Below are positions 4,660-55,799 of a stretch of DNA of 64,000 nucleotides, piece after piece. Positions within the stretch are counted from its first letter, which is position 1, and every line of letters begins with the position of its first letter. The translations under genes were made by a program, and so were the position numbers. Source of the stretch: Rubellimicrobium roseum (GTDB lineage: Bacteria; Pseudomonadota; Alphaproteobacteria; Rhodobacterales; Rhodobacteraceae); NCBI RefSeq assembly GCF_006152145.1, contig NZ_VDFV01000006.1, positions 1 to 64,000 of the forward strand, written 5' to 3'. The notes under the pieces were generated by a model. That model was not told the origin of the DNA and did not search any database. It worked only from the letters and a program-made list of their open reading frames with translations.

Positions 4660-4738
4660 CGCTCCCTCTGTGGATCGGCGCAGACCCATCCTGGCACACC
4701 GAGGCCGTCGGGGGCGGTCACATCATCAACACCCCTAG

Positions 4739-18894: not shown

Positions 18895-21240
18895 ATGACC
18901 ACCGTTACCGACATCCTGGCCTCCATGGACTACGGCCCCGCTCCGGAGGATTCCCGCATCGTGACCGACTGGCTCGAGCGGTTCCCTCAAGGGTTCGGCC
19001 ATTTCATCGGGGGCGCCTTCACCGCGCCTAACGAAACCTTCGAAGTGCGGAATCCGGCGACCGGGTCGGTGATCGCCCATGTGGCGCAGGGGACTCCCGA
19101 AGATGTGGTTGCTGCCGTCGCGGCCGCCCGCAAGGCTCAGCCTGGCTGGGCCGGGCTCTCGGGGCATGAGCGCGCCCGGCACCTTTATGCCTTGGCGCGG
19201 CACGTCCAGCAGCATTCCCGCTTCTTGGCGGTGCTGGAGACGCTCGATAATGGCAAGCCCATCCGGGAAAGCCGCGACATCGACGTGCCGCTTGTCGCCC
19301 GGCATTTCTATCATCACGCAGGCTGGGCCGAGGTGCTGGACACCGAGTTCCCAGGGGCCCGGCCCCACGGCGTTTGCGGGCAGATCATCCCCTGGAACTT
19401 CCCGTTACTAATGCTGGCCTGGAAGGTGGCGCCCGCGCTGGCCGCCGGCAACACGGTGGTGCTGAAGCCGGCCGAGTACACCCCTCTGACGGCGCTGGCC
19501 TTCGCCCAGATCGCCACCGAATGCGGCCTCCCCGAAGGCGTGCTGAACGTCGTGACCGGCGATGGCTCTGCCGGTGCGGCCTTGGTTTCGGCCGAGGGGG
19601 TCGACAAGATCGCGTTTACCGGCTCGACCGAGGTGGGCCGTATCATCCGTCGCCAGACTGCCGGGACGGGCCGGCCGCTGACGCTCGAGCTGGGCGGCAA
19701 GTCGCCCTTCGTAGTCTTCTCGGACGCGGATATCGATGCCGCTGTCGAGGGGGTCGTGGACGCGATCTGGTTCAATCAGGGCCAGGTCTGCTGCGCGGGC
19801 GCCCGCATCCTGGTGGCCGAGGCTGTCGCTTCAAAGTTCGAGAAGAAGCTGGCGCAGCGCATGAGAACGCTGCGGGTGGGGGATCCCCTCGATAAGAACA
19901 CCGACATGGGCGCGATCGTGCATCCCGTCCAGCTCGAACGAATTCGTGAGCTGGTGAGCAGGGGGGAAGCCGAGGGAGCGACCCTGACGCAAGGCGAGGC
20001 GCCCGAGGGCTGCTTCTACCCGCCGACCATCGCGAGCAATGTCGAACCGGCTTCGACGCTTGCGACTGAGGAGATCTTCGGGCCGGTGGCGACCATCACC
20101 ACCTTCCGCACGCCCGAGGACGCGGTGATGCTGGCCAATGCCACGCGCTACGGCCTCGCGGCCTCGATCTGGTCCGAGAACGTAAACCTATGCCTAGATG
20201 TGGCCGCCAAGGTGAAGGCCGGCGTTGTCTGGATCAACAGCACCAACATTTTCGATGCGGGGGCAGGGTTCGGCGGCTACCGCGAGAGCGGCTATGGCCG
20301 CGAGGGCGGCCGGGAGGGGATGACGGCCTATCTCGCCCACCCCGGTCCTGTTGCGTCCCGCCCCGAGGTCGAGCCGGAGGCGCCGGTCGCGACGCCAGGC
20401 GCGGCCTCGACCGCTCCAGGGATCGACCGGACGGCAAAGCTATACATCGGCGGCAAGCAGGCCCGACCGGACTCAGGTTATGTCTACGCCGTACCTGGCG
20501 GCCTCGCGGGACTCGGTAACCGCAAAGACATCCGCAATGCGGTGGAGGCGGCGCACAAGGTGTCCGGCTGGGGCAAGACCACCGGCCATAACCGGGCGCA
20601 GGTGCTCTATTTCCTCGCTGAGAACCTCTCTGCTCGTGCCGCCGAGTTCGAGGGGCGGCTGGCCTCCTTTGGCATCGCCCGGGCGGCGGCGAAAGCGGAA
20701 GTCGACGCTTCGGTCCGGCGCTGCTTCTGGTACGCCGCGCAGGCGGACAAGTTCGATGGTGCTGTCCATCAGACCAAGACGGAGCATGTCACGCTTGCCG
20801 TGCCCGAGCCCCTGGGAGTTATCGGCGTCGCCTGTCCCGTCGCTCAGCCACTGCTGGGCTTCGTAAGCCTCGTGCTGCCGGCCATTGCAATGGGTAACGC
20901 GGTGGTCGCGATCCCCTCGCAGACCAACCCGCTGGCCGCGACGGATCTTTATCAGGTCCTCGACACCTCCGACCTGCCAAGCGGCGTGGTCAACATTGTG
21001 ACCGGGGAACGGGAGGTCTTGGCCAGGACCCTGGCCGAGCACGACGACGTGGCCGGGATGTGGTATTTCGGAACGGTCGCTGGCGCGAAGATGGTTGAGG
21101 CCGCATCGGCGGGAAATCTCAAGCAAACCTGGACGGAGGACGGGGCGGCACGCGACTGGTTCGGGCCCGTGGGGCAGGGCAGGGAGTTCCTGCACCGCGC
21201 CACGCAGGTCAAGAATGTCTGGGTGCCTTACGGCGAATGA
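18895..21240 (+). CDS. Two-domain aldehyde dehydrogenase, ALDH16 type
   Basis: The 781-residue protein has two ALDH modules. The first (about residues 1-480) is complete: PWNFPLLML, catalytic Glu in LELGGKSPF and catalytic Cys in GQVCCAGAR. The second (about 510-781) keeps the fold landmarks ([29 protein letters not shown]) but has lost the catalytic cysteine region. This is the ALDH16 plan, known from a bacterial (Loktanella) enzyme and animal forms. Its place 11 nt after deoC suggests it oxidises the acetaldehyde released by the aldolase. The stop overlaps the following HAD gene (ATGA). Confidence 0.88.
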
Positions 21241-28004: not shown

Positions 28005-29504
28005 ATGACCCCCCTGGTCGCCCTGCGCGGCATCGGCAAGTCGTTTGCAGGCATTCACGCGCTGTCGGGGGTCGATTTCGACGTCCATGCCGGCGAGGTC
28101 CATGCGATGGTCGGCGAAAACGGCGCCGGCAAGTCCACCCTGATGCGCGTCATGGGGGGGGAGCTCCGCCCCGATGCCGGCCATGTCGAGATCAACGGCG
28201 AGACGGCGCGACTCAGCGGCCCGACCGACGCGATCCGGCGCGGCATCAGCATCATCCACCAGGAAATGGCTCTCGCCCCGCATCTGTCGGTGGCCGAGAA
28301 CATCTTCCTGGGCGAGCTACCGGCCCGCATCGGCTGGACCCAGCTTAATGCCCGTGCGCGCGAGCTGATCCAACGGCTTGGCTTCGACATTTCTCCCCGG
28401 GCCACGGTGTCCGACCTTTCGGTCGCTCACCAGCAGGTGGTCGAGATCGCCAAGGCCCTGTCCCGCAAGGCGCGGGTCATCGTCTTCGACGAGCCTACTG
28501 CCGTTCTGTCCATGGGCGACGCCAAGCGCCTGCTCAACATCATCCGCGGCCTTCGCAACGAGGGGGTGGGCATTGTTTACATCTCGCACCGCCTCGACGA
28601 GATCTATGCCATCGCCGACCGAATTTCGGTGCTGAAGGACGGCCGCAACGTGGATACGGTAACGCCGGACGCCGTGCCCGTCGATCAGCTCATCCGCATG
28701 ATGGTTGGCCGCCCGCTTAGCCAACTCTTCGGAACCAAGCCGGAGACCGTTATTGGCGAAGAGCTGCTGCGGGTCGAGCACCTAACGCTCCCGAACTTCG
28801 TCCGGGACGTGTCCTTCTCCCTCCGTCGGGGCGAGGTCGTGGGCCTCGGGGGGCTGGTCGGCTCCGGCCGGACCGAGGTTGCCCGTGCAATCTTCGGCGC
28901 AGATCCTATTGCCGCGGGACGGATCACCTATAAGGGCGAGGCCTTCCGGCCAAGGTCGCCCAAGCAGGCGGTCCGCCAAGGGGTGGCGCTGGTTCCTGAG
29001 GACCGCAAGGGACAGGGCGTCGTCCTCGACATGGCGATCCGCAAGAATGCCACCATGGCGAACACCGCCCCGGTCACCCGCCTGGGTTTCTTTTCGGGCG
29101 CCAAGGAGCGAGGTGTGGTGCGGGGCCTGATCGAGGACCTTCGCATCAAACTGGGCGACATGGGTGACCCAGTTTCCTCCCTTTCAGGAGGGAACCAGCA
29201 GAAGGTCGTGCTAGCCAAGTGGTTCCACACGGGCAGCGACGTGGTCATCTTGGACGAGCCCACGCGCGGCGTCGACGTGGGCGCCAAAACGGAAATCTAC
29301 TCGCTAATTCACCGCATGGCGGCCGAGGGGAAGGCGGTTCTCGTCATCTCCTCCGAGCATGCCGAGTTGTTCGGCCTTTGCGACCGGGTTCTGGTCATGG
29401 GCGAGGGACGGCTGCGCGGCGAGCTCGCGCCCGAAGATTACACTGAAGAAAAGCTGCTGACGCTCTCGATAAAGGGCGGAGCCGAGGAGAGGGTATTGGC
29501 ATGA
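28005..29504 (+). CDS. Sugar ABC importer ATPase with two nucleotide-binding domains (importer 2)
   Basis: 499 residues in two ABC domains. Domain 1 has Walker A GENGAGKST, a relaxed signature LSVAHQQVVEI and Walker B IVFDEPTAVL. Domain 2 has the degenerate P-loop GLVGSGRTEVAR, signature LSGGNQQKVVL and a normal Walker B VVILDEPTRGVD. Of the three importers, this one has the most standard second domain. AAGGAGGAG precedes the ATG. The stop overlaps the permease start (ATGA), indicating coupled translation. Confidence 0.9.
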   Translation: MTPLVALRGIGKSFAGIHALSGVDFDVHAGEVHAMVGENGAGKSTLMRVMGGELRPDAGHVEINGETARLSGPTDAIRRGISIIHQEMALAPHLSVAENIFLGELPARIGWTQLNARARELIQRLGFDISPRATVSDLSVAHQQVVEIAKALSRKARVIVFDEPTAVLSMGDAKRLLNIIRGLRNEGVGIVYISHRLDEIYAIADRISVLKDGRNVDTVTPDAVPVDQLIRMMVGRPLSQLFGTKPETVIGEELLRVEHLTLPNFVRDVSFSLRRGEVVGLGGLVGSGRTEVARAIFGADPIAAGRITYKGEAFRPRSPKQAVRQGVALVPEDRKGQGVVLDMAIRKNATMANTAPVTRLGFFSGAKERGVVRGLIEDLRIKLGDMGDPVSSLSGGNQQKVVLAKWFHTGSDVVILDEPTRGVDVGAKTEIYSLIHRMAAEGKAVLVISSEHAELFGLCDRVLVMGEGRLRGELAPEDYTEEKLLTLSIKGGAEERVLA

Positions 29505-30511
29505 CATCGAACACGGCAGGTTTCGGTGAGCCGGCAGCAAGCGAGGCAGAGGCTCCGCGGCGCCGGCGAACGTCTTTCGGGAAGCTGTTCCGGCAGTTCG
29601 GGACCTTTGTCATCTTCCTGATCCTTCTCGGTCTAGCCTCGCTGCAGTCGGATGCCTTCCTGACCGAGCGGAACGTGATGAACATCCTCCGCCAGCACGC
29701 CGGCACGGGGATCATGGCCGTGGGGATGCTGTATGTGATCCTCACGCGCGGCATCGATCTTTCAGTGGGCTCGATCGCGGCGCTAGGGGCGGTCACAACA
29801 GCGATCCTGGTGCAGGATTGGCCCCTCTGGGCCGCTCTGGCCATGGTCATCGGCATCGGCGGCGCGTGCGGGGCGGTGTCGGGCTTCCTGGTCGCCTTCC
29901 TGCGCCTGCCGGCCTTCGTCGTGACGTTAGCCATGATGACCGCGGCCCGGGGAATGGCGCTTATCCTGTCGAACGGCCAGCCCATCATGCTGGGCGAGCC
30001 GGGTGCATCTCTGTCGACCTTTGGCACGTCCTTCGCCCTAGGCGTTCCGGCGCCGGCGCTCCTGATGTTCGCGGTCTTCGTGATTGCCTTGATCGTGCTG
30101 AATTTTTCGCGTTTCGGTCGGCTGGTGAAGGCCATCGGATCGAACGAAGAGGCCGTGCGCCTGTCGGGCATTTCGGTTGGCTGGTACGTCATGTCCGTGT
30201 ATGTCATCTCCGGTGCTCTGGCCGCCATTGCCGGCGTCGTGGTGACCTCCCGCTCGGGCGTCGGTTCGGCAAGCGTGGGCGAAGGGGCCGAGCTCGATGT
30301 GATTGCAGCCGTGGTGATCGGCGGGGCCAGCCTGATGGGCGGGCAGGGGGGCGTGATCAACACGTTCCTAGGTGTCCTGATCCTCGGCATCATCGGCAAC
30401 ATCATGAATCTCGCGGGCGTCCCTGGCTACCACCAGCAGGTCTATCTGGGCGCCATCATTGTGGTGGCCGTGGTTCTCCAGCACGCCAGCCAAATTCTTC
30501 GCCGGCGCTGA
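29501..30511 (+). CDS. Sugar ABC importer permease (importer 2)
   Basis: A 336-residue RbsC-type permease with a basic, disordered-looking N-terminal tail (about residues 1-35) and then eight or more membrane helices. Motifs are ILTRGIDLSVGSIAALGAV, GFLVAFLRLPAFVVTLAMMTAARG and AAVVIGGASLMGGQGG. There is only one permease gene in this operon, so the channel is probably a homodimer, unlike importers 1 and 3. It overlaps both neighbours (ATGA before, TGATG after). Confidence 0.9.
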   Translation: MTSNTAGFGEPAASEAEAPRRRRTSFGKLFRQFGTFVIFLILLGLASLQSDAFLTERNVMNILRQHAGTGIMAVGMLYVILTRGIDLSVGSIAALGAVTTAILVQDWPLWAALAMVIGIGGACGAVSGFLVAFLRLPAFVVTLAMMTAARGMALILSNGQPIMLGEPGASLSTFGTSFALGVPAPALLMFAVFVIALIVLNFSRFGRLVKAIGSNEEAVRLSGISVGWYVMSVYVISGALAAIAGVVVTSRSGVGSASVGEGAELDVIAAVVIGGASLMGGQGGVINTFLGVLILGIIGNIMNLAGVPGYHQQVYLGAIIVVAVVLQHASQILRRR

Positions 30512-32016
30512 TGGACTGCACGATCGCGCTCGACATCGGCACGGGATCCACCCGCGCCGCCGCAATGTCGCCGGACGGGCGGGTCCTGACGGTTGCCGCC
30601 CAGGCCTACGATCAGATCGTGCCGACCTACGGATGGTCTGAGCAACGACCGGCGGATTGGTGGGCATCCGCTTGTGCCGCCCTCCGGCAGGTCACTGCGC
30701 AGGCCAGGGCCGAAGGCTGGTGCATCCAAGCCGTCGCGGCCTGCGGGCAGATGCACGGCACCGTCCTAGTCGACGCAGAGGGCTGCCCGACCCGGGATAC
30801 GGCGCCTCTGTGGAACGACAAGCGCACGCTCGACCACGTGCGCCGGTTCGAGGCCGAGGAGCGGCTTTCGGACTGGCTGCCCATCACCGCGAACCCACCC
30901 ACCCCGGCTTGGCCGGCCTTCAAGCTGCAGTGGCTGCGCGACTACGACCCCGAGGCCTGGGCCCGCACGACCCATGTGCTCATGCCTAAGGACTATGTGA
31001 ACCTGTGCCTGACGGGCGAACGGGCGATGGACTGGACTGACGCTGCCTGTTCCTTCCTGATGGACGCCGCGACAGGCGAATGGTCGCAGAAGGTGCTCGA
31101 CCGGCTGGGTCTCGACCGCGAGAAGCTCGCGCCGATCCGGCTGCCCATCGAGATACTTGGAGCGGTGACGGCCGAGGCCGCAGAAGCAACGGGCCTTGCG
31201 CGGGGCACACCTGTCCTCGTCGGCGGAGCGGACTATCCCGTCGCCCTGCTGGGCTCGGGCGTCTGCCGGCCCGGCATGGCATCCGAGGTGGCAGGGACGT
31301 CCTGCATCGTGACCCTGATTGCGAACGCCCCGGTCCTCGACCCCGAGATCAGCAACGTGGGCACGCCCGAAGGGAACTGGGGCGCCTTCGTGCTCCTAGA
31401 GTCAGGTGGGGATGCCGCCCGCTGGGCGCGGCGCGCCTTTCACGGCAACGAACTCGGCTATGCAGAAATCGTTGCGATGGCCGAGACGGCGCCGCCTGGC
31501 GCCGATGCGCTCTTCTTCCTGCCCTATCTATCGGGCGAGCGGCTTGGCGCGCATCGCAACAGCCGGGCGCAATTCTTCGGCTTGGCGGCAGGACATACGC
31601 TGTCGCACATGCATCGCGCGGTCCTTGAGGGTGTCGGGTTCGCCGTTAACCGCCACCTGCGAGTCATGGAGAACGCCACTGGAACCCGCCCGGACGTCTT
31701 GATCGCCAGCGGGGGTGGAGCCAAGGCAGACCTCTGGCTGCGCATCAAGGCAGCGATCTACAACCGTCCGATTCTGATCCCAGAGGAGCCCGAATGCGGA
31801 CTCGTGGGCTGCGCCGCGCTGTGCGCGGTCGCGCTGGGTGAGGCAGCCGACCTGCCGCAAGCGGTTTCGCGCACCGTCCGGCACGGCCGGGAGGTCGTGC
31901 CTGATCCCGCCTGGGCCGACCGCTACGCTGTGATGCAGCCCGTGTTCGACAAGCTCTACCTGCAGTCGCAGGCCCTTTACGACGATCTCGATCATCTGAC
32001 CGGAAACACCTTATGA
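30511..32016 (+). CDS. FGGY-family carbohydrate kinase (xylulokinase-like, importer 2 operon)
   Basis: A 501-residue FGGY kinase. The first phosphate loop is ALDIGTGSTRAAAM, then CGQMHGTVLVD, PLWNDKRT (substrate region), TPVLVGGADYPVALLGSG and the C-terminal ATP site LIASGGGAKADLWLRIKA. The CGQMHG and WND segments resemble xylulokinase, so a pentulose or related ketose is likely. ATG 30511 shares its A with the permease stop. Phosphorylation straight after import fits a HexR- or isomerase-linked phosphosugar pathway. Confidence 0.85.
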   Translation: MDCTIALDIGTGSTRAAAMSPDGRVLTVAAQAYDQIVPTYGWSEQRPADWWASACAALRQVTAQARAEGWCIQAVAACGQMHGTVLVDAEGCPTRDTAPLWNDKRTLDHVRRFEAEERLSDWLPITANPPTPAWPAFKLQWLRDYDPEAWARTTHVLMPKDYVNLCLTGERAMDWTDAACSFLMDAATGEWSQKVLDRLGLDREKLAPIRLPIEILGAVTAEAAEATGLARGTPVLVGGADYPVALLGSGVCRPGMASEVAGTSCIVTLIANAPVLDPEISNVGTPEGNWGAFVLLESGGDAARWARRAFHGNELGYAEIVAMAETAPPGADALFFLPYLSGERLGAHRNSRAQFFGLAAGHTLSHMHRAVLEGVGFAVNRHLRVMENATGTRPDVLIASGGGAKADLWLRIKAAIYNRPILIPEEPECGLVGCAALCAVALGEAADLPQAVSRTVRHGREVVPDPAWADRYAVMQPVFDKLYLQSQALYDDLDHLTGNTL

Positions 32017-32780
32017 CGCCTTATCTCGACCGCTTTCGCCTGACTGGACGGACCGCGCTGGTGACCGGGGGCGCCCGTGGCATCGGCTTCGCGACCTGCG
32101 AAGCCCTTGCGCAGGCCGGCGCACGCGTAATCCTAACCGACCGGGACGAGGCGGCGGCCCAGGATGCCGCCGAGAGCATCAAGGGCCAGGGCCACGACGT
32201 GGTGGCAGACCGGCTCGAAGTGACTAGCTCCGCCGAGGTCCATGCGCTGGCCGACAGGCATCCCGAGGTCGACATCCTCGTCAACAACGCGGGCATTGCG
32301 CGCTCCAACATCCCGGCGGAGCGTATGACGGACGACGAATGGCTATCCGTCGTCGACATCAATCTGAACGGTCTCTACTGGTGCTGTCGCTCCTTCGGCG
32401 GACGGATGCTCGATCGCCAAGCAGGCACCATCGTCAACGTGGGCAGCATGTCAGGCTTCATCGTCAACCGCCCGCAGGAGCAAGCGCAGTACAACGCTTC
32501 CAAGGCAGCGGTCCACCAGCTGACGCGCAGTTTGGCTGCCGAATGGGCCCCGCGCGGGGTGCGCGTCAATGCCGTCGCGCCCACGTACATTGAGACCGCG
32601 ATGAATTCCTACGTCTACGAGGACGAGAACCTCATGCGGCACTGGATCGGCGGCACGCCCCAGGGCCGGATGGGACGGCCCGACGAAGTGGCGGCGGTCA
32701 TTCTTTTTCTTGCGTCAGACGCAGCGAGCCTGATGACCGGCTCGATTGTTCTGGCCGATGGAGGCTACACATGCTGGTGA
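32013..32780 (+). CDS. Short-chain dehydrogenase/reductase
   Basis: A 255-residue classical SDR. Cofactor motif TGGARGIG is near residue 18, NNAG near residue 90, and the catalytic Ser-Tyr-Lys set is in NVGSMSG and QYNASKAAV. The C-terminal SDAASLMTGSIVLADGGYTCW is typical. It probably oxidises a hydroxyl of the sugar or polyol, with NAD or NADP not distinguishable with certainty (Asp after the second strand, LTDRDE, favours NAD). It overlaps the kinase stop by 4 nt and the next gene by 10 nt. Confidence 0.85.
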   Translation: MTPYLDRFRLTGRTALVTGGARGIGFATCEALAQAGARVILTDRDEAAAQDAAESIKGQGHDVVADRLEVTSSAEVHALADRHPEVDILVNNAGIARSNIPAERMTDDEWLSVVDINLNGLYWCCRSFGGRMLDRQAGTIVNVGSMSGFIVNRPQEQAQYNASKAAVHQLTRSLAAEWAPRGVRVNAVAPTYIETAMNSYVYEDENLMRHWIGGTPQGRMGRPDEVAAVILFLASDAASLMTGSIVLADGGYTCW

Positions 32781-33850
32781 CACCGATCCGTCCCCGCGGG
32801 GCCCGCTTTCCCGGGCGCTATATCCAAGCCCCGGGCCTCATTGCCCGTCTGGGGCAGGAGGCCGCTCCGCTCGGAACCCGGGCTCTGGCCATCCTCGATG
32901 GCCGCCTGGCCGACCAGCTGGAAACGATGGTCCAGGATGGTGCGGGTCCGATCGGGATCACGACCTTGAGTCATGGAGGCGAGTGCTCGGAAACCGAGAT
33001 CGAGCGTGGCGTCGCGGCCGGCCAGACAGCTGGCGCCGATCTCGTGATCGGGGTGGGCGGTGGCAAGACGCTGGACACGGCCAAGGCGGTGGCCCACCAG
33101 CTCGGCGCGGCCACCGTTATCGTTCCGACCATCGCTGCCTCAGACGCGCCTTGCTCTGCGCTCGCGGTGGTCTACCGCGAGGACGGCACGGTCGCCTACG
33201 ACCTGTTCCTGCCCCGCAACCCCGACCTCGTTCTGGTCGACACGGCCATTATCGCCCAGGCGCCGGCGCGCTTCCTGGCGGCGGGGATCGGCGACGCTCT
33301 GGCAACCTATTACGAGGCGGAAAGCTCCCGCCGGGCGAGTGCGCCCAACTGCTGGGGGACGCTCGGCGCCTCGGTCGCGTTCCGCATTGCGGAGGCCTGT
33401 CGCGATACAATCTTCGAATACGGCCCTCACGCCTTGGAAGAGTGCGATGCCGGAACTCCGGGCGAGGCTCTCGAGAAGGTAGTCGAGGCCAACATCCTGC
33501 TTTCAGGCGCGGGCTTCGAGTCGGGCGGCGTCGCAGCCGCTCATGCGATCCATCACGGCCTTTGCGAACTTCACGACGTTCACGATCACCTTCATGGCGA
33601 GAAGGTCGCGATCGGGGTGCTGGCCAGCCTGTTGATCCATGGGGACCGGGCGGAGTTCGAGAGGGTTCGCGCATTCTGCAAAGCCGTGCGACTGCCCATC
33701 CAGCTTGCCGACATAGGCATTCAGGACCCCACGGACGAAAAGCTCCGCATCGTCGCCGAGCGTGCCTGTCGCCCCGGCGAAATCATGCACAACGAGCCGA
33801 TCACCGTAACCCCGGACATGGTCGTGGCCGCACTGAAGGAATTGCGCTGA
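32771..33850 (+). CDS. gldA: Glycerol-dehydrogenase-like iron/zinc polyol dehydrogenase
   Basis: 359 residues of the GldA family (metal-dependent NAD polyol dehydrogenases). The NAD-binding GVGGGKTLDTAKAVA is at residues 94-108; metal ligands are Asp175 in GIGDALATYYEAE, His258 in AAHAIHHG and His275 in HLHGEKVA. GldA enzymes oxidise glycerol, 1,2-propanediol or similar vicinal diols. In the same region as a diol dehydratase, it could act on a diol product or substrate. It overlaps the preceding SDR gene and the following one by a few bases. Confidence 0.88.
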   Translation: MLVTPIRPRGARFPGRYIQAPGLIARLGQEAAPLGTRALAILDGRLADQLETMVQDGAGPIGITTLSHGGECSETEIERGVAAGQTAGADLVIGVGGGKTLDTAKAVAHQLGAATVIVPTIAASDAPCSALAVVYREDGTVAYDLFLPRNPDLVLVDTAIIAQAPARFLAAGIGDALATYYEAESSRRASAPNCWGTLGASVAFRIAEACRDTIFEYGPHALEECDAGTPGEALEKVVEANILLSGAGFESGGVAAAHAIHHGLCELHDVHDHLHGEKVAIGVLASLLIHGDRAEFERVRAFCKAVRLPIQLADIGIQDPTDEKLRIVAERACRPGEIMHNEPITVTPDMVVAALKELR

Positions 33851-34587
33851 TGGACACGTTTCGGCCTGATCTGTTTACCGGAAAGCATGTTGTGGTCGCT
33901 GGAGCAACGAGCGGCATTGGACTAGCGATTGCGCAGGGCTTTGCGGCGCATGGCGCAAGCGTGACGGGGCTCGGGAGCTCGGCAGCCAAGCTCGCCACGC
34001 TGGCGGCGGAGGGGATTGTCTTCCGCCAGTTGGAACTGCGGGACAGTGACGCCGTCAAGGCCTTCTGTTCCGGCGTATCCCGCGCAGATATCGTGATCAA
34101 CGCTGCTGGCATCGCGAGGCCCGAGGCGGAGTGGGACGAGGCCGGATTCCTCGACGTGATGGAAGTCAACCTCAATGCGGCGATGCGGCTGTCCTATGGC
34201 CTTTATCCTCGTCTGGCTGAAGTGAAAGGCTCCATTGTCAATGTAGCCTCGATGCTGAGTTTTCTTGCTGATGCCTCCGTGCCGGCCTACGGGACCTCCA
34301 AGACAGGAATCCTTGGGCTTACCCGGGCTTGCGCCCACCGCTGGGGACGGGAAGGGATCCGCGTCAACGCTATCGCCCCGGGCTACCACCGGACCGACAT
34401 GACGCGGCCGATCTGGTCCAACCCTGCGGGGGCGGCGGCCGTCGAGGCGCGGACCGCGCTTGGCCGCTGGGGGGCGGCTGAGGATCTGGTCGGCGCAACG
34501 CTGTTCCTGTGCTCGCCGGCTGCCGCCTATGTCACCGGCGTCTGCTTGGAGGTGGATGGAGGTTTCGTCAGCGGCAATCCTCTCTGA
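33850..34587 (+). CDS. Short-chain dehydrogenase/reductase (second of the operon)
   Basis: A 245-residue SDR with cofactor loop GATSGIG near residue 18, INAAGIARPE, catalytic Ser in NVASMLSF, and Tyr/Lys in AYGTSKTGI. The early strand is followed by LGSS rather than an acidic residue, which leaves room for NADP. It shares its start with the GldA stop (TGATG), so it is the last gene of a continuous overlapping run from the importer. It is not a close copy of the preceding SDR, so the pathway appears to use several separate oxidation or reduction steps. Confidence 0.85.
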   Translation: MDTFRPDLFTGKHVVVAGATSGIGLAIAQGFAAHGASVTGLGSSAAKLATLAAEGIVFRQLELRDSDAVKAFCSGVSRADIVINAAGIARPEAEWDEAGFLDVMEVNLNAAMRLSYGLYPRLAEVKGSIVNVASMLSFLADASVPAYGTSKTGILGLTRACAHRWGREGIRVNAIAPGYHRTDMTRPIWSNPAGAAAVEARTALGRWGAAEDLVGATLFLCSPAAAYVTGVCLEVDGGFVSGNPL

Positions 34588-34610
34588 GGATGGAACGGCT
34601 CTGATGATGT

Positions 34611-34671
34611 GACGCCCCCCTGCGGCCTCTGTGTGCCAGGGTGGGTTCCTGAACCACCGCTGGGAGGCGTC
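34611..34671. repeat. Imperfect inverted repeat in front of the IS110-like remnant
   Basis: GACGCCCCCCTGCGG (34611-34625) and CCGCTGGGAGGCGTC (34657-34671) are inverted copies matching at 13 of 15 positions. The 31 nt between contain a smaller foldback, GGTGG...CCACC. In RNA this would give a long bulged stem. IS110-family elements encode a structured bridge RNA next to the transposase gene, so this may be the remains of such a region; that is a speculative reading. Confidence 0.4.
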
Positions 34672-34678
34672 GATCCGC

Positions 34679-34789
34679 GAAGTCAGCGTGATCGGGTTGG
34701 ATCTGGCGAAGCATGTGTTTCAGCGTCACGTGGCCAGTCAGATCGGCGGCTTGGCCCTGACCGTCATGAAACTTAGGAGGAGCGGGGTT
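34679..34789 (+). pseudogene. N-terminal remnant of an IS110-family transposase
   Basis: In frame the stretch reads EVSVIGLDLAKHVFQRH and later MKLRRSGV, the start of an IS110-family (DEDD) transposase with its first catalytic Asp in GLDLAK. Nothing else of the roughly 340-residue protein remains. The frame happens to run without a stop into the downstream SDR gene, which would create a false 322-residue fusion if read from 34631. Confidence 0.75.
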
Positions 34790-34831
34790 CCGTGCGCGTC
34801 ACGGAGCCGTCCAAGCCTTTGGGAGAGCTAT

Positions 34832-35599
34832 GTGACCAAGAATTCGATCCATCCCAGCTTGGCCGGCAAGGTCGTCCTGGTGACGGGGGGTGGCAGTGGC
34901 ATCGGCGCAGCTCATGTCGCCGAGTTCTGTGCCCAAGGCGCAACGGTCGGCTTTCTCGACGTGGCGGAGGACGCATCGCGCCAGTTGGTTGAGCAGGTGA
35001 CCGCCGCAGGGCACAAGCCGCCGCGCTTCCTACGCACGGACCTGACCGATGTTGCGGCGCTGCAGGCGGCCATCGCAGCCTTTGCCGCCGAGGCCGGCGC
35101 GGTCGACGTGCTGGTCAACAACGCCGCCCACGACGAGCGCCACGAGCTCGACGCGATCACCCCCGAGTACTTCGAAGAGCGCATCGCGGTGAACCTGCGG
35201 CATCTGGTCTTCGCGATCCAGGCGGTTGCGCCCGGCATGCGGGCCAAGGGCGCGGGCGTGATCGTCAACACCGGCTCGATCAGTTGGCGCGCGGGCTTCG
35301 GGGGCATGCCGCTTTACATGGCGGCCAAGGCCGGCATCGAAGGGCTGACCCGGGCGCTGGCACGCGATCTGGGGCCAGACGGCATCCGGGTGAACTGCAT
35401 CCTGCCCGGCTGGGTGATGACCGAGCGGCAGCTCACGCTCTGGGTGGACGACGCGGCCCGCAAGCTCATCGCGGAGCGGCAGTGCCTTGGCGGCTATGTG
35501 GAGCCCGCGGACATCGCCCGCATGGCGACGTGGCTGGCCTCGGACGACAGCCAAATGATCACCAACCAGACCTTCGTTGTCGACGGCGGATGGATCTGA
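34832..35599 (+). CDS. Short-chain dehydrogenase/reductase (third of the region)
   Basis: A 255-residue SDR with TGGGSGIGAAH near residue 20, Asp in FLDVAED (NAD preference), NNAAHDERHEL, catalytic Ser in NTGSISW and Tyr/Lys in LYMAAKAGI. GTG 34832 is chosen because GGGAGA lies 5 nt upstream and the family N-terminus (LAGKVVLVTGG) follows within a dozen residues; the only upstream ATG-type starts are in the IS110 remnant. The insertion scar separates this gene from the preceding operon, so it may have lost its original promoter. NNAAHDERH and GWVMTERQL resemble sugar (aldose) 1-dehydrogenase SDRs. Confidence 0.8.
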   Translation: MTKNSIHPSLAGKVVLVTGGGSGIGAAHVAEFCAQGATVGFLDVAEDASRQLVEQVTAAGHKPPRFLRTDLTDVAALQAAIAAFAAEAGAVDVLVNNAAHDERHELDAITPEYFEERIAVNLRHLVFAIQAVAPGMRAKGAGVIVNTGSISWRAGFGGMPLYMAAKAGIEGLTRALARDLGPDGIRVNCILPGWVMTERQLTLWVDDAARKLIAERQCLGGYVEPADIARMATWLASDDSQMITNQTFVVDGGWI

Positions 35600-35786
35600 T
35601 CCTTGGCGGGAGGCGTCCGTTCCGTGGCCGCTCTGGCTCTCTTGGGGAGGACCGCGTAGCTCGCCAAACCTTGCTACGTCCTGAGCCCATTCCCGATCAC
35701 GGCAGTGTCGATCAGCTTGCCTTGCCTTCGACGCTTCCCGATGATGGTGGCAGGCTGAGCATCTCGACTGGCTGCAGGAGACTCCG

Positions 35787-38024
35787 ATGACCGAGCCCGC
35801 ATCGGGACGCTTCCGCTCCCGTGCCGCCCGTCCCATCGCCCGGGACCGCTTTGTCCACCCCGATGCTTCGCTTGGCCTTTGCGTCATGGGTAGCCCGAAT
35901 GACCCCACTCCCAGCCTCACCCTCGTGGGAGGACGCGTGGTCGAGATGGACGGACGCGAGGCCGAAGACTTCGACGTGGTCGACCGTTTCATCGCAACCG
36001 AGGCGTTGGATCTCGAGGTCGCTGCCGAAGCAATGGCGATACCATCGCTCGACCTCGCGCGGATGCTCGTGGACATCCATGTGGGGCGCGAGGAGATCGT
36101 GCGTCTGTTTGGCGGCCTCACTCCCGCGAAGCTCGCAGACGTCGCGGGCCATCTCGACGTACTCGAGATGATGATGGCGCTGCGCAAGATGCGTGGCCGG
36201 CGCACGCCCGGTAACCAAGCCCACGTCACAAACTGGAAGGAGAACCCGGTCCTCTTGGCCGCCGATGCGGCCGAGGCGGCGCTTCGGGGCTTCGATGAAG
36301 CGGAGACCACCGTCCGGGTCGCCCCCATGGCCGCGATGAACGCCATGGCGCTTCTTGTGGGGTCCCAGGCGGGGCGCCCGGGGGTCCTCACCCAATGCGC
36401 GGTCGAGGAAGGGGTAAACCTGCGGCTCGGCCTCAAGGGCCTGACCTCCTACGCCGAGACGCTGTCGGTCTACGGCACCGCCGGGGCGTTCCGCGATGGC
36501 GACGACACGCCCTGGTCCAAGGGGTTTCTCGCCTCGGCCTATGCCTCGCGCGGCATCAAGATCCGCTTCACGTCTGGCGGGGGCTCCGAAGCCCTGATGG
36601 GCCACGACGAGGGCAAATCGATGCTCTACCTCGAAGCGCGCTGCCTTCTGATGGTCAAGGGCGCGGGCTCGCAGGGCGTGCAGAACGGGTCCATCTCCTG
36701 CATCGCGTTGCCCATGGCGCTCCCCGGCGGTGTGCGCGGCGTGCTGGCCGAGAACCTGCTGGCCTGCGCCCTCGGCCTCGAATGCGCGTCCGGCAACGAC
36801 GCTATGGCCTCGCACTCGGAGATGCGGAAGGCCGCCAAGCTCATGCTCCAGTTCCTGCCCGGCACCGACTTCGTGACCTCCGGCCAGAGCGTGATGCCTC
36901 GCCGCGACAACATGTTCGGCGGCGGTAACTTCGATGCCGACGACCTCGACGACTGGCTCGTGCTCCAGCGCGATATGCAGGTGGACGCGGGCCTTGTCCC
37001 CGTCCGCGAGGTCGAGGTGATCGAGGTCCGCAACCGCGCCGCCCGCGCCCTGCAGGCGGTCTTTGCCCACCTCGGCCTCCCCCTGATCACCGATGCCGAG
37101 ATCGAGGCCGCCGCCCTCGCTCACTCCTCAGATGACATGCCCGACCGCGACCTCGTGGCCGACCTAGCCGCCTCCACTGCGCTCCTGAACGGTCCACACG
37201 GCGTGGCTGACGTGATCCTTGCGCTCGACGCCGGTGGCTTCTCCGGCCTCGCGGAGCATCTCCTGCGGCTCCAGCGGGCGCGGGTGGAAGGCGATACGCT
37301 TCAGCCCTCCGCTGTGCTCGACGAGGAGTTCCGGGTCCTCTCGGCCTTCACCGACCCGAACGACTACCGTGGCCCCGGCACCGGCTACCGCCCCGAGGGC
37401 GCAACTTGGGACCGGATCGCCGACCTTCCCCAGGCGAAGCAGCCCTCCGAGATGCTGTCGCGGTCCACAGACGACACCGGCTTTCGACTTCTTGATGGTC
37501 GACCCGCGCTCTCCTCCTCGGACCCTTCGGACGTCGTCGTCGCCCTCGGCCCCGCCTTCGGAGCTCGGCTGGGCCGCACCATCGGCGAGCTTTCTCACCA
37601 AGACGTCCTTGCCGCCCTGACTCGCGGCATACGCGAGGAGGGCCTCACTCCCCGCCTCGTCCGCGTGCGCGCCACCGCCGACTGCGGCGCACTCGGGCAC
37701 GAGGCCTCGCGGCTCGCAGGCTCCGCTATCGGAATCGGCCTCCAGTCGAAGGGCACGGCTGTTATCCATCGCCATGGCCTTGCGCCTCTCGACAACCTTG
37801 AGCTTTTCTCGCAAGCCCCCGCCCTCACGGTCGACAGCTATGCCGCCATCGGCCGCAACGCCGCCCGGCACGCCAAGGGCGAGCCGCCTTCGCCAGTCCC
37901 GGTGCGCGTGGACAACATGGCGCGGCTCCGGCTCATTGTGCCGACCCTGCTCATGCACAAGGCCGAGCTTGCTGCAGTGCTCCCCGACGCCCCGCCTATG
38001 GAAGTCGCGCCCGATCATGGCTGA
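35787..38024 (+). CDS. Coenzyme-B12-type diol/glycerol dehydratase, large and medium subunits fused
   Basis: A 745-residue fusion. Residues 1 to about 555 align with PduC/DhaB1 and about 560-745 with PduD/DhaB2. Active-site residues of the Klebsiella large subunit are all present with a constant +3 offset: Gln144 and His146 (GNQAHVTN), Glu173 (EAETTV), Glu224 (YAETLS), Gln299 (VQNGS), Asp338 (SGND) and Ser365 (TSGQS). The medium part keeps LGPAFG, SAIGIGLQSKGT and NLELFSQAP. The enzyme dehydrates vicinal diols to aldehydes using adenosylcobalamin. No cobalamin riboswitch box is seen in the 187-nt gap upstream, and no reactivase or microcompartment gene is in the window. Confidence 0.92.
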   Translation: MTEPASGRFRSRAARPIARDRFVHPDASLGLCVMGSPNDPTPSLTLVGGRVVEMDGREAEDFDVVDRFIATEALDLEVAAEAMAIPSLDLARMLVDIHVGREEIVRLFGGLTPAKLADVAGHLDVLEMMMALRKMRGRRTPGNQAHVTNWKENPVLLAADAAEAALRGFDEAETTVRVAPMAAMNAMALLVGSQAGRPGVLTQCAVEEGVNLRLGLKGLTSYAETLSVYGTAGAFRDGDDTPWSKGFLASAYASRGIKIRFTSGGGSEALMGHDEGKSMLYLEARCLLMVKGAGSQGVQNGSISCIALPMALPGGVRGVLAENLLACALGLECASGNDAMASHSEMRKAAKLMLQFLPGTDFVTSGQSVMPRRDNMFGGGNFDADDLDDWLVLQRDMQVDAGLVPVREVEVIEVRNRAARALQAVFAHLGLPLITDAEIEAAALAHSSDDMPDRDLVADLAASTALLNGPHGVADVILALDAGGFSGLAEHLLRLQRARVEGDTLQPSAVLDEEFRVLSAFTDPNDYRGPGTGYRPEGATWDRIADLPQAKQPSEMLSRSTDDTGFRLLDGRPALSSSDPSDVVVALGPAFGARLGRTIGELSHQDVLAALTRGIREEGLTPRLVRVRATADCGALGHEASRLAGSAIGIGLQSKGTAVIHRHGLAPLDNLELFSQAPALTVDSYAAIGRNAARHAKGEPPSPVPVRVDNMARLRLIVPTLLMHKAELAAVLPDAPPMEVAPDHG

Positions 38025-38406
38025 AGACCCACCCCGGACCCGCTCGGGCCGCCCCCTTGAGGACGTGACCGTCGAAGCATTGCGCGCCGGCACCGTCGCT
38101 CCCTCGGACCTCGCAATCCACGCCGAGACGCTGCTCCGCCAAGCCCGGATTGCGGAGGAACGGGGCTACCGGCAGCTCGCCCGGAACTACCGCCGCGCAG
38201 CCGAGCTCACCCGCATTCCCGACGCGATGCTCGCCGGGATTTATGACCGCCTCCGTCCGCGCCGGTCGAGCTATGTGGAACTCCTCACCCTCGCGCAGGA
38301 GATGGCCGCGCTCCACGACGCGCCCGAGACCGGCGCCTACATCCGCGCCGCGGCCGAGGCCTACCGGGATGAGGGACTGCTCAGGTCGGACGGGGCAGGA
38401 TCCTGA
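38017..38406 (+). CDS. Diol/glycerol dehydratase small subunit
   Basis: A 129-residue homologue of PduE/DhaB3. It has SGRPLEDVTVEALRAG, then the conserved helical core NYRRAAELTRIPD and IYDRLRPRRSSYVELL. It overlaps the fused large-medium gene by 8 nt and should assemble with it into the active complex. It lacks the long N-terminal extension that carries microcompartment-targeting signals in Pdu-type enzymes, in keeping with the absence of shell genes. Confidence 0.9.
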   Translation: MAEDPPRTRSGRPLEDVTVEALRAGTVAPSDLAIHAETLLRQARIAEERGYRQLARNYRRAAELTRIPDAMLAGIYDRLRPRRSSYVELLTLAQEMAALHDAPETGAYIRAAAEAYRDEGLLRSDGAGS

Positions 38407-42953: not shown

Positions 42954-43418
42954 GTGAACGATCCGACTAAGCTGCCCTCAACCATGCCGTCTGTCATTGT
43001 CATCTCGAGCCTGGGCAGCCAAACGGCTCTAACGTTGGTCCGCCGTGCCCTTGATGAGGCTGCCTATCATCAGTGGCGAATCGCTGTCGCGGTGGCAGAC
43101 GCTAATGGTGCCATCCTTGCCTCCGCCCGGATGGATGGGGTCGCGCCGCCGATCCTGGAATTCGCTTTCGACAAGGCATTCACGGCCGCGACTATGCGCC
43201 GGACAACGGCGGCGTTTGCCGAGCGGATGGACAGTTCGCCGGGGCTGCGGCTGGGCCTAGCCACGCGCGAACGCTTACTGACCTGGGCCGGGGGCCTCCC
43301 GATCATCCACGACGGGCAGGTGATCGGGGCGATCGGGATCTCCGGTGCAAGGGATCATGAGGACGTCGCTTGCGCAGAGGCCACGCTGGCGGCCGAGGGC
43401 CTGGCCTGGGAAGCTTGA
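42954..43418 (+). CDS. GlcG/HbpS-family protein
   Basis: A 154-residue protein of the GlcG/HbpS (heme-binding-like) family. It shows ALTLVRRALDEAAYHQWRIAVAV, then DANGAILASARMDGV, KAFTAATMRRTTAAF and IGAIGISGARDHEDVACAEA. Members often sit in operons for glycolate, diol or aromatic-acid breakdown; their exact function is poorly known. It begins at a GTG with AAGGAAA upstream. It converges on the TetR gene with a gap of only 11 nt. Confidence 0.8.
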   Translation: MNDPTKLPSTMPSVIVISSLGSQTALTLVRRALDEAAYHQWRIAVAVADANGAILASARMDGVAPPILEFAFDKAFTAATMRRTTAAFAERMDSSPGLRLGLATRERLLTWAGGLPIIHDGQVIGAIGISGARDHEDVACAEATLAAEGLAWEA

Positions 43419-50123: not shown

Positions 50124-51620
50124 ATGGACCAATCCAGCAACCGCCTTTCGCTGCCATCCTCCCCGCGCGAGTTCGGCTTCTTCGTCGACGGCGAATGGAG
50201 GGGAGGGCGCGAGTTCTTCGACCGCGCTTCGCCGGGCCACGGAGCCGTGGTCACGCGCATTCCGCGCTGCACGAACAAGGATCTCGAAGACGCCGTCGCG
50301 GCTGCCAGGACCGCCTTCGAGGATCGCCGCTGGTCTGGCCTTTCCGGGGGCGAACGCGCTGGTGTTCTTCTGCGCGCGGCCGAGGGCCTGCGTCGCCGCC
50401 GCGACGAGATTGCCTATTGGGAAACGCTCGAGAACGGCAAGCCTATTTCCCAGGCCCGGGGCGAGATTGACCACTCAATTGCCTGCTTCGAAATGGGGGC
50501 TGGCGCGGCGCGGCTCCTGCACGGGGACAGTTTCAACTCGCTAGGGGACAACCTTTTCGGCATGGTCCTACGCGAGCCCATCGGGGTTGTGGGCCTTATC
50601 ACGCCCTGGAACTTTCCTTTCCTGATCCTCTGCGAGCGGGTCCCTTTCATCCTGGCTTCGGGCTGCACCATCGTGGCCAAGCCTTCGGAGGTGACCTCTG
50701 CTACAACGTTGATCCTGGCAGAGGTTCTCGCCGAGGCCGGGCTTCCCGCTGGGGTCTACAACGTCGTGACGGGCTCGGGCCGGACCATCGGTCAGGCGAT
50801 GACCGAGCATCCCGACATTGACATGCTGTCCTTCACGGGCTCGACCGCCGTGGGACGTTCCTGCGTGCGGGCGTCGGCCGACAGCAATTTCAAGAAGCTG
50901 GGGCTGGAACTTGGCGGCAAGAACCCGATGATCGTTTTCGCGGATGCCGACCTGGACGAGGCGGCGGACGGGGTGGCGTTCGGAATCGGCTTCAACACCG
51001 GACAGTGCTGCGTGTCGGGCAGCCGGCTGATGGTCGAGCGCTCCATCGCTGAGGAGTTCGAGGCGCGTCTCGCAGACAAGATGGCGCGGATCCGCGTAGG
51101 TGATCCCTTGGACGAGCGCACACAGGTCGGTGCCATCACGACCGAGGCCCAGAACACCACGATCCTTGACTACATCGCCCGCGGCCAGGCCGAGGGTGCG
51201 CGTGTGGTCACGGGCGGCACCCCGCTCGACTTCGGTGGCGGGCAGTATATCGCGCCCACGCTCTTTGCGGGCGTGACGCGGGGCATGGCCATCGCCCAAG
51301 ACGAAATCTTTGGCCCCGTCCTCTCCTCCATGCCGTTTGACACGATGGAGGAAGCGATCCGGCTCGCGAACGACACCGTCTACGGGCTTTCTGCCAGCGT
51401 CTGGACCAAGAATCTTGATAAAGCACTTGCTGTTACGCGGCGGGTCCGAGCCGGGCGCTTCTGGGTCAACACGATGATGGCCGGCGGGCCCGAGATGCCT
51501 TTGGGCGGCTTCAAACAGTCAGGCTGGGGGCGCGAGGCCGGGATGTACGGGGTCGAGGAGTACACGCAGATCAAGTCGGTGCATATCGAGCTTGGCAAGC
51601 GCACGCCCTGGATCGAATGA
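50124..51620 (+). CDS. NAD(P)-dependent aldehyde dehydrogenase
   Basis: A 498-residue single-domain ALDH. It has TPWNFPFLILCERVPFIL, FTGSTAVGRSC, catalytic Glu in LELGGKNPM and catalytic Cys in NTGQCCVSGSR, with EIFGPVLS and PLGGFKQSGWGRE near the end. It oxidises an aldehyde to the acid. Upstream of a CoA transferase gene, this would supply the acid for thioester formation. It shows no second domain, unlike the ALDH16 at 18895. The stop overlaps the GMC gene start (ATGA). Confidence 0.9.
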   Translation: MDQSSNRLSLPSSPREFGFFVDGEWRGGREFFDRASPGHGAVVTRIPRCTNKDLEDAVAAARTAFEDRRWSGLSGGERAGVLLRAAEGLRRRRDEIAYWETLENGKPISQARGEIDHSIACFEMGAGAARLLHGDSFNSLGDNLFGMVLREPIGVVGLITPWNFPFLILCERVPFILASGCTIVAKPSEVTSATTLILAEVLAEAGLPAGVYNVVTGSGRTIGQAMTEHPDIDMLSFTGSTAVGRSCVRASADSNFKKLGLELGGKNPMIVFADADLDEAADGVAFGIGFNTGQCCVSGSRLMVERSIAEEFEARLADKMARIRVGDPLDERTQVGAITTEAQNTTILDYIARGQAEGARVVTGGTPLDFGGGQYIAPTLFAGVTRGMAIAQDEIFGPVLSSMPFDTMEEAIRLANDTVYGLSASVWTKNLDKALAVTRRVRAGRFWVNTMMAGGPEMPLGGFKQSGWGREAGMYGVEEYTQIKSVHIELGKRTPWIE

Positions 51621-54227: not shown

Positions 54228-55799
54228 ATGAAAAAGGTCAGATCCGCCCGCGAGGCAGTCGCGCTGATCGGCGATGGAGCTGTGGTTGCCGTCAACTCGT
54301 CTTCTGGGCTGCTCTGTCCGGATGCGGTTCTTCAAGCCTTGGGTGAGCGCTTCGAGTCAGAGGGGGCGCCCCGCGGGCTCACCTCCATTCATCCCATCGC
54401 TGCGGGTGACATGTTCGGCACCAAGGGAGTGGACCACATCGCCCGACCCGGCCTCCTGACAAGGATCATCGGAGGGTCCTACCCTTCAGGGCCGAGCAAC
54501 GCCGAACCGCCGCGCATCTGGCAGATGATCCAGAACGAGGAGGTCGCGGCTTGGAACATCCCCTCGGGCATCGTCTTCGATATGCTTCGCGAGGGCGCGG
54601 CCAAGCGGCCAGGCGTTCTGACCAAGGTTGGCATGGACACCTTCGTCGACCCCGAGCAAGAAGGTGGCGCCATGAACGCGAGCGCCCGGCAGTCGCCGAT
54701 GGTCCGGCGTGTGGATTTCGACGGCGATGAGTGGCTCCACTTTCCTGCCTTGGCGCCGGACGTCGCGATTATCCGAGCCACGACTGCAGACGAGAATGGC
54801 AATCTGACCTTTGAGCAGGAGGGGGCCACACTGGGCGCGATGGAGATGGCTCTGGCCGCACGGAACTGCGGCGGAATCGTCATAGCCCAGGTCAAGCGTG
54901 TGGCCGCCAATGGCACGATGCGCCCTCATGACGTCAAGGTGCCCGGCATCCTTGTAGACATCGTTGTGGAGGCTCCCGACCAACTTCAGACGACGGCAAC
55001 GGCCTACGATCCCGCGATTTCGGGCGAGCTGTTCCGGCCCTTGTCCAGCTTCCGCCACGCGGAGTTCAACATAGGCAAGGTCATCGCCCGCCGCGTGGCG
55101 CGGGAACTCCGCCCTGGATGGGCGGTAAACATCGGTTTCGGTATTTCGGCAAACGTGCCGCGGATCCTCATAGAGGAAGGGCACCACGGCAAAGTGACTT
55201 GGGTCATCGAGCAGGGTCCCGTGGGAGGCGTTCCGCTCCTCGACTTCAAGTTCGGCTGCGCCGCAAACGCGGAAGCCTTCGTGGCCTCTCCGCACCAGTT
55301 CAGTTACTTCCAGGCGGGCGGTTTCGATTGTTCGCTCTTGTCCTTCCTTGAGATCGATGCAGAGGGTTCGGTCAACGTCTCGCGCCTGGCCGCGACCCCG
55401 CACCGAACGGCCGGAGCCGGTGGCTTCGTGGACATCACCGCGCGGGCGAAGCGCATCGTCTTCTCTGGAAACTTCAACGCTGGGGCCAAGATGCGACTCG
55501 AGAACGGTCGCCTCATTATCGATAAGGAAGGCAAGATTGCGAAGATCGTGCCCAAGGTAGACCAGGTAAGTTTCTCGGGACGCCGCGCCCGCGCGCAAGG
55601 GCAGGACGTCACCTATGTGACCGAGCGATGCGTGATGCGTCTCGCTGATGACGGTCTCATCGTCACCGAGATCGCGCCGGGCCTCGACCTCGAGCGCGAT
55701 GTGCTGGCTCAGGCAGCGACGCCCCTGCATGTCGCTCCGAACCTGAAGGTGATGGACGAGGCGCTGTTCCGGCCTGAGCCCGTCGGGCTGCCGCTGTGA
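54228..55799 (+). CDS. Acetate/propionate-type CoA transferase
   Basis: A 523-residue fused CoA transferase of the propionate CoA-transferase/YdiF family. The alpha part starts MKKVRSAREAVALIGDGAVV; the beta part contains NIGFGISANVPRIL and the catalytic Glu in TWVIEQGPVGGVPLLDF. The enzyme moves CoA between short-chain acyl-CoA and a free acid through a glutamyl-CoA intermediate. ATG 54228 follows GGAGGG; the upstream in-frame ATG at 54153 lies before the operator and is rejected. It is the first gene of a CoA-dependent operon and probably activates the acid made by the upstream oxidoreductases. Confidence 0.9.
   Translation: MKKVRSAREAVALIGDGAVVAVNSSSGLLCPDAVLQALGERFESEGAPRGLTSIHPIAAGDMFGTKGVDHIARPGLLTRIIGGSYPSGPSNAEPPRIWQMIQNEEVAAWNIPSGIVFDMLREGAAKRPGVLTKVGMDTFVDPEQEGGAMNASARQSPMVRRVDFDGDEWLHFPALAPDVAIIRATTADENGNLTFEQEGATLGAMEMALAARNCGGIVIAQVKRVAANGTMRPHDVKVPGILVDIVVEAPDQLQTTATAYDPAISGELFRPLSSFRHAEFNIGKVIARRVARELRPGWAVNIGFGISANVPRILIEEGHHGKVTWVIEQGPVGGVPLLDFKFGCAANAEAFVASPHQFSYFQAGGFDCSLLSFLEIDAEGSVNVSRLAATPHRTAGAGGFVDITARAKRIVFSGNFNAGAKMRLENGRLIIDKEGKIAKIVPKVDQVSFSGRRARAQGQDVTYVTERCVMRLADDGLIVTEIAPGLDLERDVLAQAATPLHVAPNLKVMDEALFRPEPVGLPL

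Follow-up and report, generated by a model that had tools for sequence, protein, structure and literature searches.

A naturally fused α-β dehydratase of the diol/glycerol type in Rubellimicrobium roseum and its relatives, encoded in genomes without a recognizable reactivase

The first 64,000 nucleotides of contig NZ_VDFV01000006.1 of Rubellimicrobium roseum (hereafter the window) harbour at 35,787–38,406 the genes of an adenosylcobalamin (AdoCbl)-dependent diol/glycerol-type dehydratase, the large (α) and medium (β) subunits of which are joined in a single polypeptide. Judged from its sequence and from the gene content of the genomes compared, this enzyme is, on balance, probably a cytosolic 1,2-diol dehydratase of the naturally fused α-β type that works without a DdrAB/DhaFG-type reactivase. 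Suicide inactivation and the resulting need for an ATP-driven reactivase are described as a critical drawback in the use of B12-dependent glycerol dehydratases (PMC7674605).

The α-β subunit is encoded by a single frame of 745 amino acids (35,787–38,024, forward strand). Its residues 6–554 match Dehydratase_LU (PF02286; E 1.3e-249, 830 bits) and residues 589–701 match Dehydratase_MU (PF02288; E 8.5e-26, 90 bits), both above cut-off; the NCBIfam model NF011979 likewise recognizes the fused protein (830.7 bits, cut-off 788). The medium-subunit model NF011616, the match of which delimits a medium region of about residues 571–740, remained below its cut-off (192.9 versus 248 bits), as did all listed NCBIfam models for the small subunit. 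The junction is placed approximately at residues 555–570 (37,449–37,496, forward strand), since 1dio_A aligns with residues 6–556, β chains align from 570–574 onwards and the Pfam large domain ends at 554. The medium domain thus follows directly upon the large one, and an N-terminal extension of the PduD kind is absent at the junction. The small (γ) subunit of 129 amino acids (38,017–38,406, forward strand; Dehydratase_SU, PF02287, E 2.8e-32) starts with an ATG inside the fused frame, resulting in an overlap of 8 bases, and is devoid of the PduE N-terminal extension (residues 8–124 aligned to 23–139 of 1iwp_G and 7–125 to 54–172 of 1dio_G). All three subunit domains of PduCDE/DhaB-type dehydratases are therefore represented by Pfam matches, in agreement with a sequence-only reading of the window, which had proposed a 745-residue protein combining large and medium subunits and followed by the small subunit. 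In a phmmer search against solved structures, the α-β chain of a glycerol dehydratase (PDB 9vi2_A) aligned with residues 6–740 (E 1e-247). Comparison with the 88 % identical copy in a congener (G006) yielded NG86 estimates of 0.080 for nonsynonymous (dN) and 0.88 for synonymous divergence (dS), corresponding to a dN/dS of about 0.09 and indicating strong purifying selection on the fused gene. The nearly full-length structural match and the purifying selection together argue against a chance assignment. Structure prediction based on an alignment of five rows gave a mean pLDDT (predicted local distance difference test) of 42 for the fused protein, and the model was not used.

The genome of R. 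roseum (G000; 4.85 Mb, 155 contigs, 99.4 % complete) contains a single match to the large-subunit family. Profile searches of this genome revealed no match to the large subunit of the reactivase (DDR, PF08841), no PF02288 domain besides the fused one and no shell protein of bacterial microcompartments (BMC, PF00936). Among 14 control genomes, the searches for DDR and BMC were positive in two each (DDR above cut-off in one of its two), and PF02288 recognized all three DdrB proteins tested (82–111 bits); the absence of a reactivase is credible because the controls gave matches and PF02288 detects DdrB. As far as the assembly goes, that is, bar its small missing part, the reactivase is absent from the genome and not merely encoded at a distance. 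The sequence-only reading had reported that reactivase and shell proteins are missing from the window, which extends to the whole genome for both families; its suggestion that a reactivase may be encoded elsewhere is contradicted by the same search. N-terminal extensions of medium and small subunits are microcompartment targeting peptides, and both the extensions and PF00936 matches, i.e. the features of a Pdu-type microcompartment, are missing.

An enzyme that does inactivate could be served by an unrelated chaperone exchanging the cofactor, such as a MeaB-like G-protein acting with an adenosyltransferase, or by a reactivase too divergent for PF08841. PMC4777399 raises a different route of reactivation for fused enzymes, and one PduO-type adenosyltransferase is indeed encoded in the R. 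roseum genome, on a different contig. Considering that the genome yielded neither DDR nor a stand-alone DdrB-like domain, MeaB not having been searched for, and that the loci most closely related to that of the window (clade A, see below) share no recurring gene beside the dehydratase except that of the small subunit, we regard such a chaperone as unlikely.

Surveys for matches to the large-subunit family covered overlapping samples of the genus (2 of 8 genomes), family (8 of 394), class (9 of 385) and phylum (6 of 398), to which Rhodospirillaceae bacterium R-7 was added. An intact fused gene was present in 18 genomes (G000, G006, G017, G116, G121, G159, G262, G392, G400, G438, G549, G565, G662, G702, G738, G858, G1022 and G1070), none of which contains a DDR match. 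The small-subunit gene adjoins the fused gene in all 17 genomes other than that of the window, so that the combination of α-β fusion, separate small subunit and reactivase-less genome found in R. roseum recurs in 17 further genomes. DDR was detected in all three genomes with a split-gene enzyme (G401, G402, G1101) and at every locus of six further split enzymes from plasmid-collection records (L020, L021, L055–L058), i.e. in the same genome or locus for 9 of 9. Two additional fused genes are located on Shinella and Agrobacterium plasmids, the plasmids alone having been covered, and raise the number of fused sequences compared below to 20 (18 + 2). Locus L003 reads as contig G006:C214 in reverse complement, and the pair entered the count a single time, under L001. 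Three genomes with only partial large-subunit matches (G328, G563, G705) were not counted, and no DDR was found in them either. The match in one of these (G563:C2:144904-145653; L028, L051) is confined to roughly the initial 250 model positions, within an open frame of 493 amino acids, and represents a truncated or decayed copy. The Escherichia coli plasmid-collection entry H90, considered as a one-piece fusion, was rejected and is a split enzyme, because its large subunit occupies a separate frame of 557 amino acids.

Alignment of 29 large-subunit sequences (20 fused, 9 split) revealed a constant offset of +3 between the fused protein and Klebsiella numbering, which is used in the following. 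Conserved residues are Q141, H143, E170, E221, T222, S224, Q296, S301, D335, S362 and F374; those at the substrate, metal and radical sites (Q141, H143, E170, E221, Q296, D335 and S362) are all retained in the window protein, and the catalytic residues are intact in 29 of 29 sequences. The Gln336/Ser301 pocket of the characterized enzymes is only half kept. Ser301 is retained as Ser304 (codon 36,696–36,698, forward strand), as in all split enzymes (9 of 9) and in all members of fused clade A, which includes the window enzyme (6 of 6), and is replaced by Asp in all 14 members of fused clade B. Position 336 (Klebsiella oxytoca), occupied by Gln throughout the 9 split-gene enzymes, corresponds to Ala339 (codon 36,801–36,803, forward strand); none of the 20 fused proteins carries Gln here (Ala in 16, Thr in three, Cys in one). 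The proposal of the sequence-only reading that all known active-site residues are found at +3 thus stands for the constant offset and the catalytic residues, and fails for Gln336. Among 222 columns invariant in the split enzymes, 10 are changed in every fused sequence (18, 23, 231, 287, 336, 337, 338, 348, 369 and 375); at positions 337, 338, 369 and 375 the window protein is accordingly also unlike each of the nine split-gene enzymes.

The window enzyme belongs to an already published kind, that of naturally fused, reactivase-less dehydratases. Like the glycerol dehydratases known from Mesorhizobium loti, Mycobacterium smegmatis and Hyphomicrobium (PMC4777399; Liu et al. 2010, cited through PMC7674605), it combines α and β in one chain (fused dhaB1-dhaB2) with a separate small subunit and lacks genes for reactivation factors; this likeness is drawn from the published descriptions rather than from sequence comparison, and the passages concerned name no Rubellimicrobium member. 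Their authors consider that reactivation of fused enzymes may not exist or may take a different route, and cite Liu et al. for slight differences in the active site (PMC4777399). A rule on Gln336 in fused enzymes was not found in the PMC passages and search results consulted, which leave aside most subscription papers, and may be contained in Liu 2010. In PMC11414229, pdu dehydratase genes are mentioned for one metagenome bin of the Rhodobacteraceae, with no reference to a fusion. With the PduCDE and DhaB1-3 enzymes of Klebsiella, Citrobacter and Salmonella, the window enzyme shares the three subunit domains, the catalytic residues tested and about 54 % identity to the split proteins (tblastn); it differs from them by the α-β fusion, the exchange of Gln336 for Ala, and the lack of a reactivase, a microcompartment and N-terminal extensions. 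Engineered α-β glycerol dehydratases (PDB 9vi2, 9vig and others, inferred to be engineered from the names of the chains) are likewise single chains and provide the best PDB match over residues 6–740. In contrast to the window enzyme, such engineered fusions possess laboratory linkers, the Klebsiella pocket and a parent organism with a reactivase; those of Wang 2009, Maddock 2017 and Gibson 2013 are reviewed in PMC7674605.

The window enzyme would most likely convert its diol to the aldehyde by the standard AdoCbl-dependent route, comprising hydrogen abstraction by the 5'-deoxyadenosyl radical, migration of the hydroxyl group and loss of water. Suicide inactivation may be kept tolerably low by the remodelled pocket (Gln336 to Ala, together with the changes at 337, 338, 369 and 375) in combination with a substrate other than glycerol. 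In a model of the Lactobacillus reuteri enzyme (numbering +1), the equivalent of Gln336 forms hydrogen bonds with D335 and F374 through their main chain (PMC5619818), and loss of this residue along with the other four changes should reshape the region orienting the third carbon of the substrate. Tethering would retain a β subunit otherwise prone to dissociate, and it could render unnecessary, or impossible, the exchange proposed for the reactivase, which in the β-swap model trades its own β-like subunit for that of the enzyme (PMC7674605). A tethered β subunit hindering this swap fits the absence of DDR from all fused genomes sampled; fusion and loss of the reactivase may have become fixed together. 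In PMC7674605, an accidental α-β fusion is described as slower to inactivate in lysate, and how fusion bears on reactivation is stated as not known. Any damaged cofactor might be removed by slow exchange or be compensated by synthesis of new protein. For the exchange at position 336 itself, the Q336A variant of the Klebsiella enzyme shows an inactivation constant with glycerol of 0.081 per min compared to 1.15 per min in the wild type (S301A, 0.22; table in PMC7674605). The altered pocket is consistent with a substrate other than propanediol or glycerol, and our best guess is a 1,2-diol or polyol that is longer or bulkier.

Several observations weigh against this interpretation. According to the same table in PMC7674605, Q336A is inactivated faster with 1,2-propanediol (0.058 instead of 0.025 per min; kcat/kinact decreasing from 0.73 to 0.11), its kcat/kinact with glycerol increases only 2.4-fold (from 0.009 to 0.022), and in this ratio the S301A/Q336A double mutant falls below the wild type on both substrates (0.016 and 0.006); Q336A is therefore no general cure. 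For the L. reuteri double mutant, a negligible change in glycerol resistance is mentioned as unpublished data (PMC5619818). Since Q336A slows the inactivation by glycerol 14-fold but accelerates that with 1,2-propanediol, life without a reactivase would require the right substrate in addition to the right pocket. Moreover, PMC9850924 describes Q336A on its own as more selective for 1,2-propanediol relative to longer diols, with a preference for the latter only in the double mutant, which weakens the assumption of a longer diol for an enzyme retaining Ser301. The clustering of changed columns around the pocket is modest: 4 of the 10 are no more than two residues away from one of 12 pocket positions, as compared to 31 of the 222 overall (hypergeometric 0.036), and this list of positions was chosen by us after Gln336 had been noticed. 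Furthermore, the class is poor in DDR in general, since among its 385 genomes only weak matches were detected in nine (17.7–22.6 bits, each covering at most about 100 of 328 positions), one of which reaches the cut-off of 24.6 together with its neighbours; these matches look like cross-hits. With the class almost devoid of DDR anyway, the informative contrast is that between fused and split enzymes. This contrast has a shallow phylogenetic basis: support for either of the fused clades, A and B, is 100/100, and a single fused clade is rejected neither in the large-subunit tree (approximately unbiased test, p-AU 0.526) nor in the medium-subunit tree rooted on DdrB (p-AU 0.387), the DdrB branches of which are very long. 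Fusion, loss of Gln336 and lack of a reactivase hence rest on one or two evolutionary events and not on 20, the division into 20 fused and 9 split sequences does not amount to 29 independent observations, and the changed residues could be lineage markers.

A further alternative is an ordinary glycerol/propanediol dehydratase, acquired recently and barely used, in which low flux spares the reactivase and the fusion as well as the change at Gln336 are neutral markers of descent. The patchy distribution (any large-subunit match in only 8 of 394 genomes of the family) and the traces of transposons beside the dehydratase in two congeners would agree with recent acquisition. A barely used enzyme is, however, hard to reconcile with the strong purifying selection, the intact catalytic residues and the absence of Gln336 common to all 20 fused sequences, and we assign this explanation a low probability.

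Upstream of the dehydratase, genes for an FGGY (XylB-like) kinase, a short-chain dehydrogenase/reductase (SDR1), a GldA-type dehydrogenase and a second SDR (SDR2) are tightly packed (30,517–34,587, forward strand; gene calls, Pfam and NCBIfam), and from this packing they probably form a separate sugar/polyol operon. Directly upstream of the dehydratase, a third SDR (SDR3; 34,808–35,599, forward strand, exact start codon uncertain) resembles xylose/glucose 1-dehydrogenases (Pfam adh_short_C2; NF053674 with 335 bits, cut-off 400). The description of the neighbours by the sequence-only reading as a GldA-type dehydrogenase and three SDRs was accurate. Genes for a major facilitator superfamily (MFS) protein and a DeoR protein are located downstream. 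Within what looks like a single run of genes on one strand, SDR2 and SDR3 are separated by a remnant of an IS110-family transposase gene (about 34,593–34,735, forward strand), which splits SDR3 and the dehydratase from the kinase-SDR-GldA-SDR genes. It was recognized by blastn against plasmids, where the eight records listed, of 56 with a match, show 72–76 % identity over 55–61 % of the query; in six of these eight, the matching region carries the annotation of an IS110-type transposase (Rhodovulum, Paracoccus and Pukyongiella). A Pfam search with the short translation of the remnant gave no match. A stretch of 45 bases in this gap (34,602–34,646) is repeated in inverted orientation at 4,684–4,728 (87 % identity). 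The 187-base gap between SDR3 and the dehydratase (35,600–35,786) showed no similarity to plasmids. In the search for a cobalamin riboswitch, the window yielded no Rfam match at gathering score and 18 dehydratase loci only two tRNAs.

The association of SDR3 with the dehydratase is uncertain. As a conserved partner SDR3 was rejected, since identities did not exceed about 35 % and no grouping received support. Strain R-7 encodes an SDR of the same broad family; this SDR and those of the window are orthologous neither to each other nor to the ones of clade B. In the congener (85 % complete), the dehydratase is flanked by a RibD_C gene on one side and a DUF772 transposase domain on the other, and only a partial match of 35 % identity to the GldA-type dehydrogenase of the window was found. 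The only gene recurring beside the dehydratase at the other clade A loci is that of the small subunit (5 of 5). Owing to the IS110 remnant, the differing context in the congener and the lack of a recurring partner in clade A, the genes surrounding the dehydratase in the window are a poor guide to its substrate. With respect to more distant genes in the stretches retrieved, clade A genome G159 contains members of the clusters of 55,796–56,581 and of ABC permeases including 29,501–30,511, the latter about 7–8 kb from its dehydratase. In G549, an aldehyde dehydrogenase gene located about 4.4 kb past the small subunit clusters with 18,895–21,240 and 50,124–51,620 of the window; the former encodes, in a single frame, a protein of 781 amino acids with two aldehyde dehydrogenase stretches.

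The dehydratase could nevertheless be part of the sugar/polyol operon and act on a sugar-derived diol, e.g. by converting the end of an alditol to a 2-deoxy aldose that is subsequently oxidized by an SDR. The genes for the ABC transporter, the FGGY kinase, GldA and the SDRs all share one strand, SDRs of the broad cluster occur at 8 of the 12 loci from clade B genomes (two orthologous groups), a permease relative lies near the dehydratase of G159, and engineered Q336/S301 variants, which are reported to accept larger diols and 1,2,4-butanetriol (PMC9850924), would suit such a substrate. The interposed IS110 remnant, the different surroundings in the congener and the non-orthologous SDRs of window, R-7 and clade B speak against it, and we consider it somewhat unlikely. 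The suggestion of a sugar-derived diol made by the sequence-only reading is therefore upheld as to the neighbours on which it was built, and weakened as to what these neighbours can tell.

The clade B loci (L009–L012, L023–L027, L031–L033, L053 and L054) combine Asp at position 301 with Arg or Lys at 337. Of the 12 loci from clade B genomes, 8 contained an SDR of this broad cluster within the stretch retrieved, 7 an isochorismatase and 4 a class III aminotransferase, the partner families being named from Pfam matches of sampled cluster members. The fused loci of Shinella and Agrobacterium contain genes for a carbohydrate ABC transporter, an SDR, an APH-type kinase and an aminotransferase. Several clade B loci thus have genes of these isochorismatase, aminotransferase, kinase and SDR families nearby. 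From these residues and neighbours, the substrate of clade B may differ from that of clade A, perhaps being amine-containing or charged.

Two further genes of the window may be mentioned. An HbpS-like protein (42,954–43,418) is 37 % and 29 % identical to heme-binding proteins encoded beside dehydratase genes of Halomarina and Citrobacter, respectively, a tie that may be due to chance in so wide a family, and a DUF993 protein (61,562–62,710; E 4e-180) adjoins another SDR.

For the fused enzymes as a group, a wider proposition can be put forward tentatively, and with less confidence than is placed in the window enzyme itself. The alphaproteobacterial fused enzymes may constitute a distinct, naturally reactivase-independent family, in which tethering of β and loss of the Gln336 bridge (loops 335–338 and 369–375) would have co-evolved for the conversion of larger 1,2-diols without suicide on their own substrate; the Asp301 clade, with genes for SDRs, class III aminotransferases and APH-type kinases in its vicinity, would then serve amino- or otherwise charged diols. 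As a natural lineage that lacks the reactivase, is α-β fused and is changed at the very residues targeted by engineers, these enzymes would lend themselves readily to testing whether it is the fusion, the pocket or the choice of substrate that lifts the limit set by inactivation.

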